64,000 bases of DNA. Origin: Microbispora sp. NBC_01189 (GTDB lineage Bacteria; Actinomycetota; Actinomycetes; Streptosporangiales; Streptosporangiaceae). A program made the position numbers and the translations under genes. How positions within the stretch are numbered: position 1 is the first letter of the stretch; each line of letters opens with the position of its first letter. The stretch is taken from assembly GCF_036010665.1 (NCBI RefSeq), contig NZ_CP108581.1, positions 689,501 to 753,500 on the forward strand, written 5' to 3'. Under the pieces are notes generated by a model that saw only the letters and a list, made by a program, of their open reading frames with translations, made no database searches and was not told the origin of the DNA. Shown one piece after another: positions 21,489-25,971 of the stretch.

Positions 21489-23852
21489 TCAGCCCAGGAT
21501 CAGCCCGGCGGCGCGCATCTCCTCGGTCAGCCAGGCCAGGGCGGCCTGCTCGTACGGCGCGGCGCCGACCGGCGTGCCCGTCCCCGGGATCACCGATGGC
21601 CCCATCGGCGGGCCAGTCGGTGAACCGATCGGTGAGCCGATCGATGAGCCCGTCGCGGCCGCGGGCGAGCCGTTCGCCGTCCGCGCGCCGCCGCCGGTCG
21701 TGACGTCCACCGCCGGCGCCGCCTCACCGGCCCCGCCGCGGGCGCCCTGCGCCCGGCCCGATCCCGTCGAACCGGTGGCGTACGACCGGGTGGCGGACTG
21801 ACCACCGGACGGGCCACCGGACGGAGCACCGGAGGGGCCACCGGACGGACCATCGGACGAGCCGCTCCCGCGCCTGCCCCGGGAGCCTCCCCCTCCGGCT
21901 CCGCCGCGCGGGTCCAAGCCGGAGACGCCGCCTTTGGCGTCCCCGCGGGTGCTGCCGGGGATGAGCCCGCCCGGAAGGGAGCCTCCGGACATGGGCCCGT
22001 TCGCCGTGCCGCCCACGGCGTACGCGGCCTGCCCCGTGAGGCCGTGCTGCGCCCCCGGACCCGCCTGACCGGTCTGCCCTGGATAAGCGGGATGCCCGGA
22101 TCGGCCGCCCTGTCCGGCGGGCGCGAGCAGCCCGGCCTCCGTCATCTCGGCGGCGAGACGACCGAGCAGCGGGTCCGCCCCGGCCGGCTCTGGGGTGATC
22201 TGCGCGAGAGCGGGCGCGAGGGCGCGCAGGGCGTTCGGCATCCCGGCGCCGGTGCGGTGGACGTCCCCGAGGTTCAGCGGCACGCAACTCGACCTGATGA
22301 TCTGGAAGAGGCGGTCGACCCGCCGCGCGTCCCGACCGGCGTAGGCGGCGCGGAAGTCGCCGTGATGGGCGAGCACGAGCGCCGCGAGGCCGGCGACGTG
22401 CGGCGCGGCCATCGAGGTGCCGTCCAGGACGGCGTACGCGTCCGGAGGCACGGCCGACAGGACGGCGACGCCCGGAGCGCAGACGTCGATCTCGGGCCCA
22501 CGGCAGGTGAAGCGGGGTGAGAAGTAACCGTCACCGGTGACGGGACCGTCGATCTCGGCCTCGTGCGCGGTGCCGGGCGGGAACGCGTCGGCCTTGCCGA
22601 CGGCGGCGACGGTCAGCACGCCGGGCAGGGTGCCGGGGAAGGCGACCGGTCCCCCGTCGTTGCCCGCGGCCACCACGCAGGCCACCCCCGCCTCCCGGGC
22701 TTGCTCGATCTTGGCGGCGACCAGCGGGGAGTGGTGCCTGCTCGCGAGGCTCAGGTTGACGACGTCGACGCCCTGCTCGACGCAGTAGTCGAGCGCCTCG
22801 ATGAGGTCGCTGAACCGCCCGCCCGGGAATATCTTGCACGCGTGCACCTCGGCCTCGACGGCGAAGCCCACGATGCCCCGGCCGTCGTCCGCGCCCGAGA
22901 TGACGGCCGCGCAGTGGGAGCCGTGGTGGGCCGTGTCGGCCGTCCATCCCTCGGGCTCGGCGTCGACCAGGTCGATCCCGGCGCGTACGCGCTCGCGCAG
23001 GTCCGGGTGGCGGATGTCGGCCCCGGAGTCGACGATGGCGATCCTGATCCCCGCGCCCCGCAGCGTGGGGGGCAGCCGGTCGAGGTTCATCGCCTGCTGG
23101 CCCCAGCCGAAGACCTGCCGGTCCGGGAAGCCGCCGAAGGTCTCGGCCAGGCGCACCGGCTCGACGAGGTTGTCCCGGGTGGTCGACAGGGCGGGGCGCT
23201 CGACGTGCACGCTCCAGTAGCCCGAGCGCGGCCGGACCGTCAGCCCGATGATCGACTCGGGCGTCTCCCCCGCCATCGTGACCACGGCGCGCCCGTCGGC
23301 TCCCGTGACCGCCTGGCCCGGCCAGCCGTGCCCGGTCACCAGGACGCTCGCGCCCGGCAGCGGCGTGCCGTCCGCGTCCCTGACCAGGACGGCGAACGTG
23401 CTCTCCAGGCCGGGCGGCGCCACCACCGGGGCGGGCCGCCGCCGGCGCGGTGGCCGCGGCACCTCGCTGTAGGTCAGCAGCCGGTCGCGCTCGACGTGCA
23501 GCTGCGGATACTGGCGGCGCAACGCCTCGACGTGCTCCGGGGTCGTCTCCGCCACGACCACGGCGGGGAACCCCGGGACCGCGGCCCCCGGGTATCCCGC
23601 CGCCCGTCCTCGTACGCGGCGCAGCACGCGCACCTCGGGGTCGTCCTCCAGCAGCCTGCGCACCGTGTCGTCGTCGTACGCCGGCGCGGCGGCTCCCGGC
23701 GCCGCCGGGTCCGGCTGCGGCAACGCCGCCACCATGTAGCGCCGCGGCCGGGGCTCCACCGGCCGCGGCGCCTGGCGCGACGCCTGCCGCCCCCGTGGGG
23801 TCGCCGGGCGCGGCTCCCCGATTGCGTCCTTGGGCTTGTCGTTAGTGGTCAC
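21489..23852 (-). CDS. cytoplasmic S8 subtilisin-family peptidase with long Gly/Ser-rich tail
   Basis: This 787-residue serine peptidase has the complete S8 triad: Asp275 in IVDSGAD, His310 in HHGSHCA, Ser480 in DGTSMAAPHVAG, with oxyanion Asn398 in AAGNDGG. There is no signal peptide. The N-terminus is Arg/Pro-rich, followed by a propeptide-like segment (about 39-130) and a small beta domain (about 150-235) resembling a carboxypeptidase-regulatory fold. After the catalytic domain a helical motif PLLGRLAAEMTEAGLL (about 561-576) is followed by about 190 residues of Gly/Ser/Pro/Gln linker. A second copy of that motif, ALAWLTEEMRAAGLILG, closes the protein. It is the last gene of a three-gene operon with a small helical protein and a Q-rich protein, which suggests they are its substrates or partners. 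Confidence 0.88.
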   Translation of the reverse strand: MTTNDKPKDAIGEPRPATPRGRQASRQAPRPVEPRPRRYMVAALPQPDPAAPGAAAPAYDDDTVRRLLEDDPEVRVLRRVRGRAAGYPGAAVPGFPAVVVAETTPEHVEALRRQYPQLHVERDRLLTYSEVPRPPRRRRPAPVVAPPGLESTFAVLVRDADGTPLPGASVLVTGHGWPGQAVTGADGRAVVTMAGETPESIIGLTVRPRSGYWSVHVERPALSTTRDNLVEPVRLAETFGGFPDRQVFGWGQQAMNLDRLPPTLRGAGIRIAIVDSGADIRHPDLRERVRAGIDLVDAEPEGWTADTAHHGSHCAAVISGADDGRGIVGFAVEAEVHACKIFPGGRFSDLIEALDYCVEQGVDVVNLSLASRHHSPLVAAKIEQAREAGVACVVAAGNDGGPVAFPGTLPGVLTVAAVGKADAFPPGTAHEAEIDGPVTGDGYFSPRFTCRGPEIDVCAPGVAVLSAVPPDAYAVLDGTSMAAPHVAGLAALVLAHHGDFRAAYAGRDARRVDRLFQIIRSSCVPLNLGDVHRTGAGMPNALRALAPALAQITPEPAGADPLLGRLAAEMTEAGLLAPAGQGGRSGHPAYPGQTGQAGPGAQHGLTGQAAYAVGGTANGPMSGGSLPGGLIPGSTRGDAKGGVSGLDPRGGAGGGGSRGRRGSGSSDGPSGGPSGAPSGGPSGGQSATRSYATGSTGSGRAQGARGGAGEAAPAVDVTTGGGARTANGSPAAATGSSIGSPIGSPTGPPMGPSVIPGTGTPVGAAPYEQAALAWLTEEMRAAGLILG

Positions 23853-24009
23853 AACGGCTCGACTCTCCCCAGCTCAGACTGGTGTCACCGGCCGCGCGCG
23901 GCGTGGCCGGCAGTTCAGGCTCTGTCATCACGCATCACGGTTCGCCGGTCTCGGGACGGCGGGGGCCCGGACCGGCCGCCGACCGGTCCGGGCCACCGAG
24001 GTGATCACG

Positions 24010-24354
24010 TCACAGCAGTGGAACCATGGGCCGTCCGGGGGCGACGACGCCGAGCGCGTACTGGATCTGTGCCAGGCACGCCTCGTACCGCCCGGCCCGG
24101 TACAGCTGCACCGCCTGCACCAGCAGCGGGATGACCCCCGCGACCTGAGGCGCCTGCGGGATCGACGTCTGCAGCCATTCGTACAGCCGCTGGAGCGTCA
24201 CGGCACAGTGCGCCTGCAGGTGCGCCTGCAGGTGCGCCGCCGGCGCCGGCTGCCCCGCCGTCACTCCCGTGGCCGGGGGCGTCGGCGAACCCGTCCCGGG
24301 ACCCACGCCGGGACCCATTCCGGGGACACCCATCCCGGGACCCATCGACTCCAC
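24010..24354 (-). CDS. small helical protein of the S8 operon, function unknown
   Basis: This protein of about 114 residues has a Gly/Pro/Met-rich N-terminal 40 residues (MGPGMGVPGMGPG...) and a helical C-terminal half with LQRLYEWLQTSIPQAPQVAG, then VIPLLVQAVQLYRAGRYEA and CLAQIQYALG, reminiscent of a short TPR-like hairpin. I do not recognise a family. GTG 24354 is chosen because GGAGG lies six bases upstream; a longer GTG start at 24381 would overlap the Q-rich gene. It lies 13 bp after the Q-rich gene and 157 bp before the subtilase gene on the same strand. Confidence 0.7.
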   Translation of the reverse strand: MESMGPGMGVPGMGPGVGPGTGSPTPPATGVTAGQPAPAAHLQAHLQAHCAVTLQRLYEWLQTSIPQAPQVAGVIPLLVQAVQLYRAGRYEACLAQIQYALGVVAPGRPMVPLL

Positions 24355-24367
24355 GGTGTTCCTCCGC

Positions 24368-25087
24368 TCAGAGTCCGGCACCGGCCGGGGCCGGGACCTG
24401 CGCCGGGACCTGCTGTGCGGCCTGCTGGTGGAGCTGGCCGTACGCCTGGTTCAGCGGCTGCATCGTCAGCGGGCCCTGCTGCCCGTACGCCGCCTGGACG
24501 TGCTGGGGCAGGACGGCCTGGCCACCGAGCTGCGGGACCTGCTGGCCGGGCTGCTGCGCGTACGCCTGGGCCGCGTAGGGCTGGGCGTACGCCTGGGCCG
24601 CGTACGCCTGCGCGTACGGGTGAGCGTAGGCGGCCTGCGGGACCTGCGGGACCTGCAGGGCCTGGGCCTGGATGGCCTGCAGCGCCTGCAGCACCTGAGG
24701 CGGCAGAGCCTGCTGCTGGATCTGCTGCTGAAGCTGCTGCTGGATCTGGGCCTGGATCTGCTGCTGCACCTGCTGCTGCTGGATCTGGGCCTGGATCTGC
24801 TGCTGCGCCTGGTGCTGGTAGAGCACGCTCTCCAGCATCTGGCGGGCGGCGGGAGCGCCGTAGCGGACGCTGTGCCTGGCGACCTTGGTCCAGAAGGTCA
24901 CCGGGCTCACCAGGTGCTCCTGCGGGAGGATCTGCTCCTCCTGCTGGATCAGCGCCAGGGGCGACACCTGCTGCTGCAGCCCCGGAACCTGCTGGGCGAG
25001 CTGCAGCGGCGTGATCTGGTGCTGGGAGCCGTAGCCCAGCGTGGTCGCCATGGACGCGGGGTGCATAGCTGTGAACGTCATAGTCAC
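24368..25087 (-). CDS. glutamine-rich prion-like protein of the S8 operon
   Basis: This 239-residue protein is unlike its neighbours. Residues about 1-95 are moderately ordered (ITPLQLAQQVPGLQQQ, EHLVSPVTFWTKVARHSV, RYGAPAARQMLESVLYQ). About 96-145 is almost pure Gln with Ile/Leu/Ala spacers in a QQQIQAQIQ register. About 150-200 is built from AQAYAQPYA-type Tyr/Ala/Gln repeats. The composition is that of a prion-like or coiled-coil aggregation domain, rare in GC-rich actinomycetes. No signal peptide or membrane segment is seen. It is the first gene of the operon. A plausible role is a scaffold or substrate for the downstream subtilase; this is inference. Confidence 0.78.
   Translation of the reverse strand: MTMTFTAMHPASMATTLGYGSQHQITPLQLAQQVPGLQQQVSPLALIQQEEQILPQEHLVSPVTFWTKVARHSVRYGAPAARQMLESVLYQHQAQQQIQAQIQQQQVQQQIQAQIQQQLQQQIQQQALPPQVLQALQAIQAQALQVPQVPQAAYAHPYAQAYAAQAYAQPYAAQAYAQQPGQQVPQLGGQAVLPQHVQAAYGQQGPLTMQPLNQAYGQLHQQAAQQVPAQVPAPAGAGL
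24710..24815 (-). repeat. CAG/CTG-rich codon repeat (poly-Gln coding)
   Basis: CTGCTGCTG-, CTGGATCTG- and CTGGGCCTG-type words on the + strand encode the Gln-rich core of the protein. DNA-level identity among units is high, especially two copies of a word around GGATCTGGGCCTGGATCTGC at 24742-24761 and 24780-24799. Confidence 0.8.
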
Positions 25088-25118
25088 TCCTTCGGAGCCA
25101 GTAGGTCCGGCCCATCGC

Positions 25119-25134
25119 CGATGTGATTACATCG
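25119..25134. promoter_or_regulatory. 16-bp palindrome CGATGT-GATT-ACATCG, likely operator
   Basis: A perfect 6-bp-arm palindrome lies 31 bp upstream of the Q-rich gene in the region divergent from the Crp-family regulator. It overlaps the proposed -10 box of the Q-rich operon, which fits repression. The half-site resembles a shortened Crp site (TGTGA-like), so the neighbouring regulator is the obvious candidate. Confidence 0.55.
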
Positions 25135-25155
25135 CGTGACGGATCGGCTTCACAA
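25126..25155 (-). promoter_or_regulatory. candidate promoter of the Q-rich/S8 operon
   Basis: On the minus strand TTGTGA (25150-25155) and TGTAAT (25126-25131) are separated by 18 bp. This is close to a vegetative consensus and is one of the few such pairs in this GC-rich window. Confidence 0.45.
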
Positions 25156-25260
25156 CGTTAGGAGCGTAATGACTGACTAAGGGCGTCTTGGCGTTCGGCC
25201 CGGCCGGGACCCGGTGACATGGAGCCCCCCGCCGGTCATACTTCGCTTGGGGGTGCCCAC

Positions 25261-25971
25261 GTGACTCGGAGGAGCGGGCGACGGCCGTGGTCGCCCGGAT
25301 CGTTGCTCGACCGGCTCCCGGAGGCCGCGCGGGAGGATCTCCTCCGCCTCGGCTCTCCGGTGACCTGTCCGGGCCGGCACGTCCTCGTCCGCGAGGGCGA
25401 CCCGGGCCACGCGGTCTACCTGCTGCTCGACGCGTTGGTGAAGGTCACGGCTCTCGCCGAGAACGGGTCCCGGACGCTGCTGTCGATCCGGGCGTCCGGT
25501 GACGTCGTCGGCGAGACGGCCGCCTTCGACGACTGCCCGCGCACGGCGACGGTGACGACCTGCGGACGATCACTCATCTGTGTCGTGAAGGGGCCCGTCT
25601 TCACGGCTCATCTCGCCCGCGCTCCCGAGGTCGCGGCCGCCCTCAGCCGGGTCACGATGGACCGGCTGCGCTTCGCCAACCGCCGGCGGCTCGACTTCGC
25701 CGGATACGAGGCCGACGTCCGCCTGGCCCGCGTCCTGGTCGACCTGGCCGTACGGCACGGGAGACCCCACCGGGAGGGCGTCGACGTCGGCGTGCCCGTC
25801 ACCCAGGCCGAGCTGGGAGAGCTGGTCGGGATCAGGGAACGTACGGTGCAGAAGGCGATGCACGACCTGACCGCCCGGGAGCTCGTCCTGCAGCGCCACC
25901 GCGGCGTGGTCGTCCGGGACATGGAAGGCCTGACCGCGTTCGCCGGCCTGAGCCTCCGGCCGGCCGGCTGA
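25261..25971 (+). CDS. Crp/Fnr family transcriptional regulator
   Basis: This regulator of about 236 residues (250 if the upstream ATG at 25219 is used) has a cyclic-nucleotide-binding-like beta barrel with VREGDPGHAVYLLLDALVKV and GDVVGETAAFDD, then a C-terminal winged helix with the recognition helix in TQAELGELVGIRERTVQKAM. The Arg usually contacting cAMP phosphate is not evident, so the effector is uncertain. GTG 25261 has the better-spaced GGGGGTG upstream. It is divergent from the Q-rich/small/S8 operon over about 170 bp that contains a palindrome, so it probably controls that operon. Confidence 0.88.
   Translation: MTRRSGRRPWSPGSLLDRLPEAAREDLLRLGSPVTCPGRHVLVREGDPGHAVYLLLDALVKVTALAENGSRTLLSIRASGDVVGETAAFDDCPRTATVTTCGRSLICVVKGPVFTAHLARAPEVAAALSRVTMDRLRFANRRRLDFAGYEADVRLARVLVDLAVRHGRPHREGVDVGVPVTQAELGELVGIRERTVQKAMHDLTARELVLQRHRGVVVRDMEGLTAFAGLSLRPAG

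Follow-up and report, generated by a model that had tools for sequence, protein, structure and literature searches.

In a 64,000-nucleotide stretch of the genome of Microbispora sp. NBC_01189 (the window), three adjacent genes on the minus strand, which we will call A, B, and C, form an operon that is conserved as a set. A encodes a low-complexity protein that is rich in glutamine, B encodes a small protein, and C encodes a subtilase (a protease of the S8 family). A fourth gene, I, joins them in some relatives. We tentatively propose that A-B-(I)-C is a latent cytoplasmic subtilase that is kept beside a self-associating low-complexity protein and that would cut or remodel A on a signal. We consider this explanation plausible, if somewhat short of probable.

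Gene A (24368-25081) encodes 237 amino acids that are rich in Q, A, Y, and P. Gene B (24010-24354) starts with the GTG at 24354, 13 bases behind A, and its 114 amino acids comprise a G/P/M-rich N-terminus and a helical core. Gene C (21489-23852) starts with the GTG at 23852, 157 bases behind B, and encodes 787 amino acids. A first-pass annotation of the window, made from the DNA sequence alone, had described this row of genes and a divergent gene for a Crp-type regulator, and we confirmed the reading frames. However, A most likely starts at the ATG at 25081 and not at the GTG at 25087. AAGGAG precedes ATG 25081, and MTFT is the N-terminus at the equivalent place in 23 of 28 A proteins (whose starts were chosen by pattern).

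As queries against 150 genomes from the same family, we used the first 260 residues of C, an N-terminal portion of A, and B. C is present in 24 of these genomes. B was matched in 25 genomes (two unlinked matches, in G050 and G133, look spurious and were excluded) and adjoins C in 23 of the 24 C loci. The A query was matched by sequence in 17 of the 150 genomes, and another five C loci have A by position only, as a low-complexity reading frame (L084, L087, L089, L090, and L091), so that a low-complexity A is present in 22 of 24. At L088, A is cut by the end of the contig. The order and strand of A-B-C, as scored by a script, are identical in 27 of the 29 loci examined; the other two are L088 and L079, whose B was missed by the script's pattern and was found in the search for B. 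A 30th locus was excluded from this count: L092 (G160) appears decayed, with C split into two frames and both A and B missing. According to the first-pass annotation, the operon would not be a conserved system if homologs of the S8 gene usually lay apart from the other two genes; these counts favor the operon, with the Q-rich and small partners at a constant place.

C was found in all 15 of the Microbispora genomes that we searched, but it is patchy between genera (10 of the 68 genera in the family sample). More broadly, B was matched in 39 of 297 genomes from the order, and C in 15 of 394 genomes from the class (two of these 15, in G350 and G464, are weak partial matches that look spurious and were not used further); these are lower bounds because only 15 (order) or 7 (class) candidates per genome were scored. 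The matches in the class that lie outside the family fall in two further families (G267, G286, and G460; G331). Scanning named genomes yielded 36 loci, of which 31 are actinobacterial and 5 belong to Oxalobacteraceae or to an uncultured relative. B adjoins C in 31/31 of the actinobacterial loci and in 0/5 of the Oxalobacteraceae-type loci. An A-like frame precedes C in 35 of the named loci according to tblastn (run without correction for low complexity, which inflates the values for A-like frames) and, by direct reading, in L164; in L160 it is present only as a fragment. The nearest named genomes are from Microbispora. Other actinobacterial families and the Oxalobacteraceae also have relatives, as do Streptomyces plasmids. 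In Streptomyces sulfonofaciens (L164:36-2379), an extra B-I-C set lies directly upstream of A-B-I-C, giving two tandem copies.

Within genera, some flanking genes are conserved as well: the same downstream gene is present in 11/11 of the Microbispora loci examined, and in Duganella, efp and earP lie upstream in 3/3 loci and gltX lies downstream in 2/3 (gene names assigned by eye). Constant flanks within genera, together with patchiness between genera, look like stable chromosomal inheritance. We also considered that A, B, and C might be co-inherited neighbors without a joint function, as the conserved Microbispora flanks would allow. However, A-B-C stays together where the flanks differ (L081, L084-L091, L122, L124, and L164), and a motif in the tail of C tracks the presence of B (see below). 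We consider it very improbable that the three genes are mere neighbors.

The S8 domain of C (residues 265-550; 22203-23060, minus strand) scores 126 bits against Pfam's Peptidase_S8 (cut-off 21.8). It has an intact Asp-His-Ser triad (D275, H310, and S480) and the oxyanion asparagine (N398), so C has both the domain and the catalytic residues of an S8 peptidase. For this domain, the ratio of nonsynonymous to synonymous substitution rates (dN/dS) is 0.14-0.22. (All dN/dS values are from our own NG86 (Nei-Gojobori) script, and compare the window to four relatives.) We found no hydrophobic N-terminus or export signal in C: the largest 19-residue Kyte-Doolittle mean within the first 60 residues is 0.47. 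This agrees with the first-pass annotation, which had described an S8 peptidase with an intact triad and no signal peptide. The corresponding values are 0.34 for A and 0.44 for B, so neither of these has a hydrophobic N-terminus.

C is predicted to be a subtilisin-type zymogen, with a prodomain, an immunoglobulin (Ig)-like domain, and the S8 domain. The best Foldseek match of the structural model (mean predicted local distance difference test score, pLDDT, of 81) is unprocessed pro-subtilisin E (3whi), over 525 columns and with a template modeling (TM) score by target of 0.84. The putative prodomain (residues 37-122; 23487-23744, minus strand) has a beta-alpha-beta-beta-alpha-beta arrangement in the model, and its fold and place resemble those of pro-subtilisin E. 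It is followed by a beta domain that is Ig-like or carboxypeptidase-regulatory-like (residues 150-230; 23163-23405, minus strand), judging from strands in the model and from weak Pfam matches, both below the cut-off (Big_1, 22.5 bits; CarboxypepD_reg, 19.8 bits). In Microbispora corallina (L126 / L145), C is longer, at 935 residues, about 409 of which form a tail after the S8 domain. Among NCBIfam families, the best match of the S8 domain is to mycosin (TIGR03921, 115.7 bits), but this is below the cut-off of 278.75, and mycosins are exported and membrane-anchored while C lacks a hydrophobic N-terminus.

A subtilase with no signal peptide and with partners in its operon recalls PopC of Myxococcus xanthus. 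PopC is described as a subtilisin-like protease that has no signal peptide, is restrained by its dedicated partner PopD, and is secreted on starvation (PMC6434023). C might similarly be exported by a non-classical route, with A and B as retention factors. However, according to the same article, PopC has no recognizable N-terminal domain, while C carries both a prodomain and an Ig-like domain, as well as a tail motif and a low-complexity partner, and we found no sign that C is exported. We consider export of this kind quite improbable.

The prodomain of C has a free-standing relative, encoded by gene I. From 11 free-standing I proteins we built a profile, and it identifies gene I in 17 of the 36 named loci. 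The same profile matches the prodomain within C; for many loci the E values lie between roughly 1e-4 and 1e-5, and for others they are weaker. Two I proteins had no Pfam matches up to E = 1, so I could not be recognized as part of the inhibitor I9 family; in this it differs from the free propeptide-type inhibitors that have been described. Gene I was not found in the well-supported clade that includes the window (20 rows of the tree), nor in L122, L123, L125, L171, L176, or L091. These scattered gaps imply more than one loss, or gain, of gene I.

Behind its S8 domain, C has one or two copies of the motif LxxEMxxAGL. In the window, the first copy is LAAEMTEAGL (residues 566-575; 22128-22157, minus strand) and the second is LTEEMRAAGL (residues 775-784; 21501-21530, minus strand), which lies four residues from the end of the protein and has dN/dS of 0.09-0.21. 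The strict motif is present in 67 of the 69 C rows whose locus has B and in 0 of the 8 rows without B (the rows are partly redundant, as some genomes were counted twice). The two exceptions among the rows with B (L090 and L163) are the same genome, with valine in place of methionine. For L164, we counted the second of its two C copies; the first copy has a variant motif, LGRDLARAGI. The script failed to recognize another four C rows (L079, L092, L128, and L162), which were left out; of these, L079 and L162 carry the motif. All five of the Oxalobacteraceae-type C proteins (L165-L168 and L170) end with tryptophan in place of LxxEMxxAGL. Because the motif tracks the presence of B, the tail of C may be a docking site for B.

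B itself is predicted to contain three helices (residues 38-104; 24043-24243, minus strand). In the AlphaFold2 model, the block of residues 41-100 has pLDDT of 88-95. This fold has no match in PDB (the best Foldseek hit has E = 2.3), but a profile for B weakly matches SRP72, which is tetratricopeptide repeat (TPR)-like (E = 0.0037 over 26 positions). The helical core of B has dN/dS of 0.43-0.57, compared to 0.80-1.11 for the whole protein; the latter values imply little constraint on B alone at this distance. Neither A nor B belongs to any Pfam or NCBIfam family above the cut-off.

A is 29% glutamine, versus a mean of 2.9% across the 52 called genes in the window. It has no asparagine, and just 3.4% of its residues are charged. 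It thus has the Q/N-rich composition (29% Q and 0% N) expected of prion-like or amyloid proteins. The first-pass annotation suggested that this Q-rich protein is a scaffold or a substrate and that the peptidase could act in a cell-fate switch; A may be prion-like, and these roles are conceivable. Within A is a 37-residue module, which we call the FW module (QILPQEHLVSPVTFWTKVARHSVRYGAPAARQMLESV; residues 50-86; 24824-24934, minus strand). Of 28 A proteins, 23 contain this module, the window's included, and those of L075, L082, and L083 have it twice. Its dN/dS is 0.13-0.26, versus 0.37-0.75 for the remainder of A. The A proteins without the FW module contain other short modules that are repeated (PAxLVS... 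and YPLLxQLV...), and A from Duganella has Gly-zipper-like repeats of 60-70 residues. Across the loci, A consistently has few charged residues, abundant Q, G, A, M, and P, and repeated modules. Alignments of Duganella A to Acrocarpospora A score 25.0 and 28.5 bits, as compared to the best score of 23.5 bits from 300 shuffles, so the case for common ancestry from sequence similarity is marginal. One Duganella A protein (P0002) scores above the Pfam cut-offs for PE (43.3 versus 22) and for DUF5832 (32.9 versus 26.7), but we did not accept either identity; these are probably matches between Gly/Ala-rich low-complexity sequences.

The modules of A suggest another explanation. A could be the precursor of several membrane-active peptides that C excises upon infection or stress, leading to lysis or growth arrest, an altruistic death with a logic like that of gasdermins. 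The modules are short and are amphipathic or Gly-zipper-like, with 2-5 copies in L087, L089, L090, L133, L134, and Duganella, and A from L085 has two weak Gly-zipper matches that are below the threshold. However, A from Microbispora and Planotetraspora has a single module that is weakly hydrophobic (the largest 19-residue Kyte-Doolittle mean is 0.61 in the window). Furthermore, most defense systems are patchy within a genus and vary in their location, while C is in all 15 Microbispora genomes, with a constant downstream gene. PADLOC did not identify any specific defense system, just a generic subtilase model and a weak match to IetS (22 bits). IetS and the NucA-trypsin-S8 conflict systems do resemble A-B-C in that an S8 peptidase has partners in its operon (PMC7159879), but we found no nuclease, ATPase, or effector-associated domain (EAD) partner in this operon. 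A role as a precursor of lethal peptides seems unlikely.

Returning to the latent subtilase, we propose that C is synthesized in zymogen form, with the prodomain lying over the active site. In loci that have gene I, its product would be a second, free prodomain that inhibits C in trans. The tail helix of C, with its LxxEMxxAGL motif, would dock on B, with its three helices, which in turn would hold C on A. A would string together short "stickers" (modules that are amphipathic or hydrophobic) within low-charge spacers that are rich in Q, G, A, and M, and would self-assemble. A signal would free C from inhibition, and C would then cut or remodel the assembly of A. In some lineages, C may have become a pseudoprotease that serves only for binding. 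It is possible, though doubtful, that these operons represent a class of protease-governed condensates that has not been described in bacteria, with A as the scaffold, B as an adaptor that reads a 10-residue code in the tail, C as the zymogen, and I as the brake. Parts would be swapped or lost by lineage, and the protease would repeatedly become a pseudoprotease.

The pseudoproteases raise the question of whether catalysis matters. Of the 44 C proteins in the tree, 39 retain the triad and five have lost part of it: His is replaced by Arg in L169, both His and Ser are lost in L091, Ser is replaced by Ala in L123 and L176, and Ser is replaced by Thr in L171. In the tree, L091 joins the three Streptomyces-type rows, although this join was flagged as a possible long-branch artifact; the losses thus represent two or three events. 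The Streptomyces-type loci retain A but have neither B nor I. In addition, the Planotetraspora-type loci (L076-L079 and L094) have serine instead of the oxyanion asparagine while keeping the triad. So C might chiefly have a structural or sensing role alongside the A assembly, with catalysis as an option that is used for self-processing only, as in the clostridial Csp pseudoproteases. The Csp proteins (such as CspB and CspC) are described as soluble subtilases that can retain their prodomain in position, and some of them have lost the triad (PMC6636752). However, the S8 domain of Csp has a jelly-roll insertion, C scores just 23.2 bits against CspBA (cut-off 1250), and the operon is not in a spore-coat setting. 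Given that most C proteins keep the triad, and given the low dN/dS of the S8 domain, we consider it rather unlikely that C is mainly structural. Csp and PopC/PopD seem to be the nearest functional analogies, and we do not place C in either group.

Several observations weigh against the latent subtilase. First, the loss of the triad from five C proteins shows that cutting is not always the function of C. Second, B is missing from the Oxalobacteraceae and from three Streptomyces-type loci, so B is not essential. Third, the C rows without B form two groups on the tree, so the contrast in the tail motif reflects at most two evolutionary events, not eight. Finally, A is conserved in sequence only within the main clade (23/28), and elsewhere only its position and composition persist. 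The FW module is missing from A of L084, L087, L089, L090, and L091, and for these 5 of 28 proteins, a shared mechanism for A rests on composition and place.

We also asked if the operon spreads with phages or plasmids. A phage origin was rejected, as the matches to C among 50,697 phage records do not go beyond the S8 domain that they share; the best match is about 36% identical over 28% of C. PHROG 3677 matches C at 192 bits, but the matches to phage records suggest that this is ordinary kinship among S8 proteins. Among viral contigs, 0 of 59 pattern matches were confirmed as relatives of C. The Duganella A protein has no matches in phages or plasmids. Although 535 plasmid records match C, this is mostly via the S8 domain, and only two Streptomyces plasmids come near to C (43-44% identity over about half of the protein). 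The S8 genes of Paracoccus and Rhizobium plasmids lack annotated A and B. We rejected spread by plasmids as well. The Paracoccus and Rhizobium plasmids (L172:5731-7533 and L173:5788-7402, respectively) carry another kind of S8 gene, which encodes a beta domain and has a small gene behind it; the Paracoccus S8 gene adjoins minCDE. In L075, L079, L082, and L083, C is followed on the same strand by a gene that was read by eye as an ATP-dependent DNA ligase (cluster c27).

The first-pass annotation had proposed that the divergent Crp-type regulator (25219-25971) controls the operon. We rejected this idea. The Crp gene is present in just 5 of 30 loci, all from Microbispora (5/11, versus 0/19 elsewhere), and it lies outside the A-B-C system. 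An alignment of 28 upstream regions revealed promoter-like conserved DNA, including CATTAC, CGTTGTG, and TGTAATCACA (25122-25171, minus strand; putative), and the blocks CATTAC, CGTTGTG, and TGTAATC precede A in 20 of the 28 loci, whatever the divergent neighbor.

A perfect GC-rich hairpin, identified by folding, lies between B and C (23966-23992, minus strand) and could be an attenuator or a terminator. It occurs once in the 7.37-Mb genome. Thirteen of 28 loci have a related hairpin, and there is none in Planotetraspora mira and its kin, in which the gap between B and C is short. No terminator with a T-run was called at the hairpin. A search of Rfam gave no match. It may lower the expression of C relative to A and B.

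A search of the open-access literature found no title that describes this operon. If our proposal is correct, then it would tie regulated proteolysis inside bacterial cells to the controlled assembly of a low-complexity protein. It would also provide a short and transferable tail motif, a natural prodomain that acts in trans, and natural pseudoprotease variants with which to separate cutting from scaffolding. Whatever the mechanism, this analysis names two families (A and B) that have no match in Pfam or NCBIfam, makes them testable, and finds them fixed in a whole genus.

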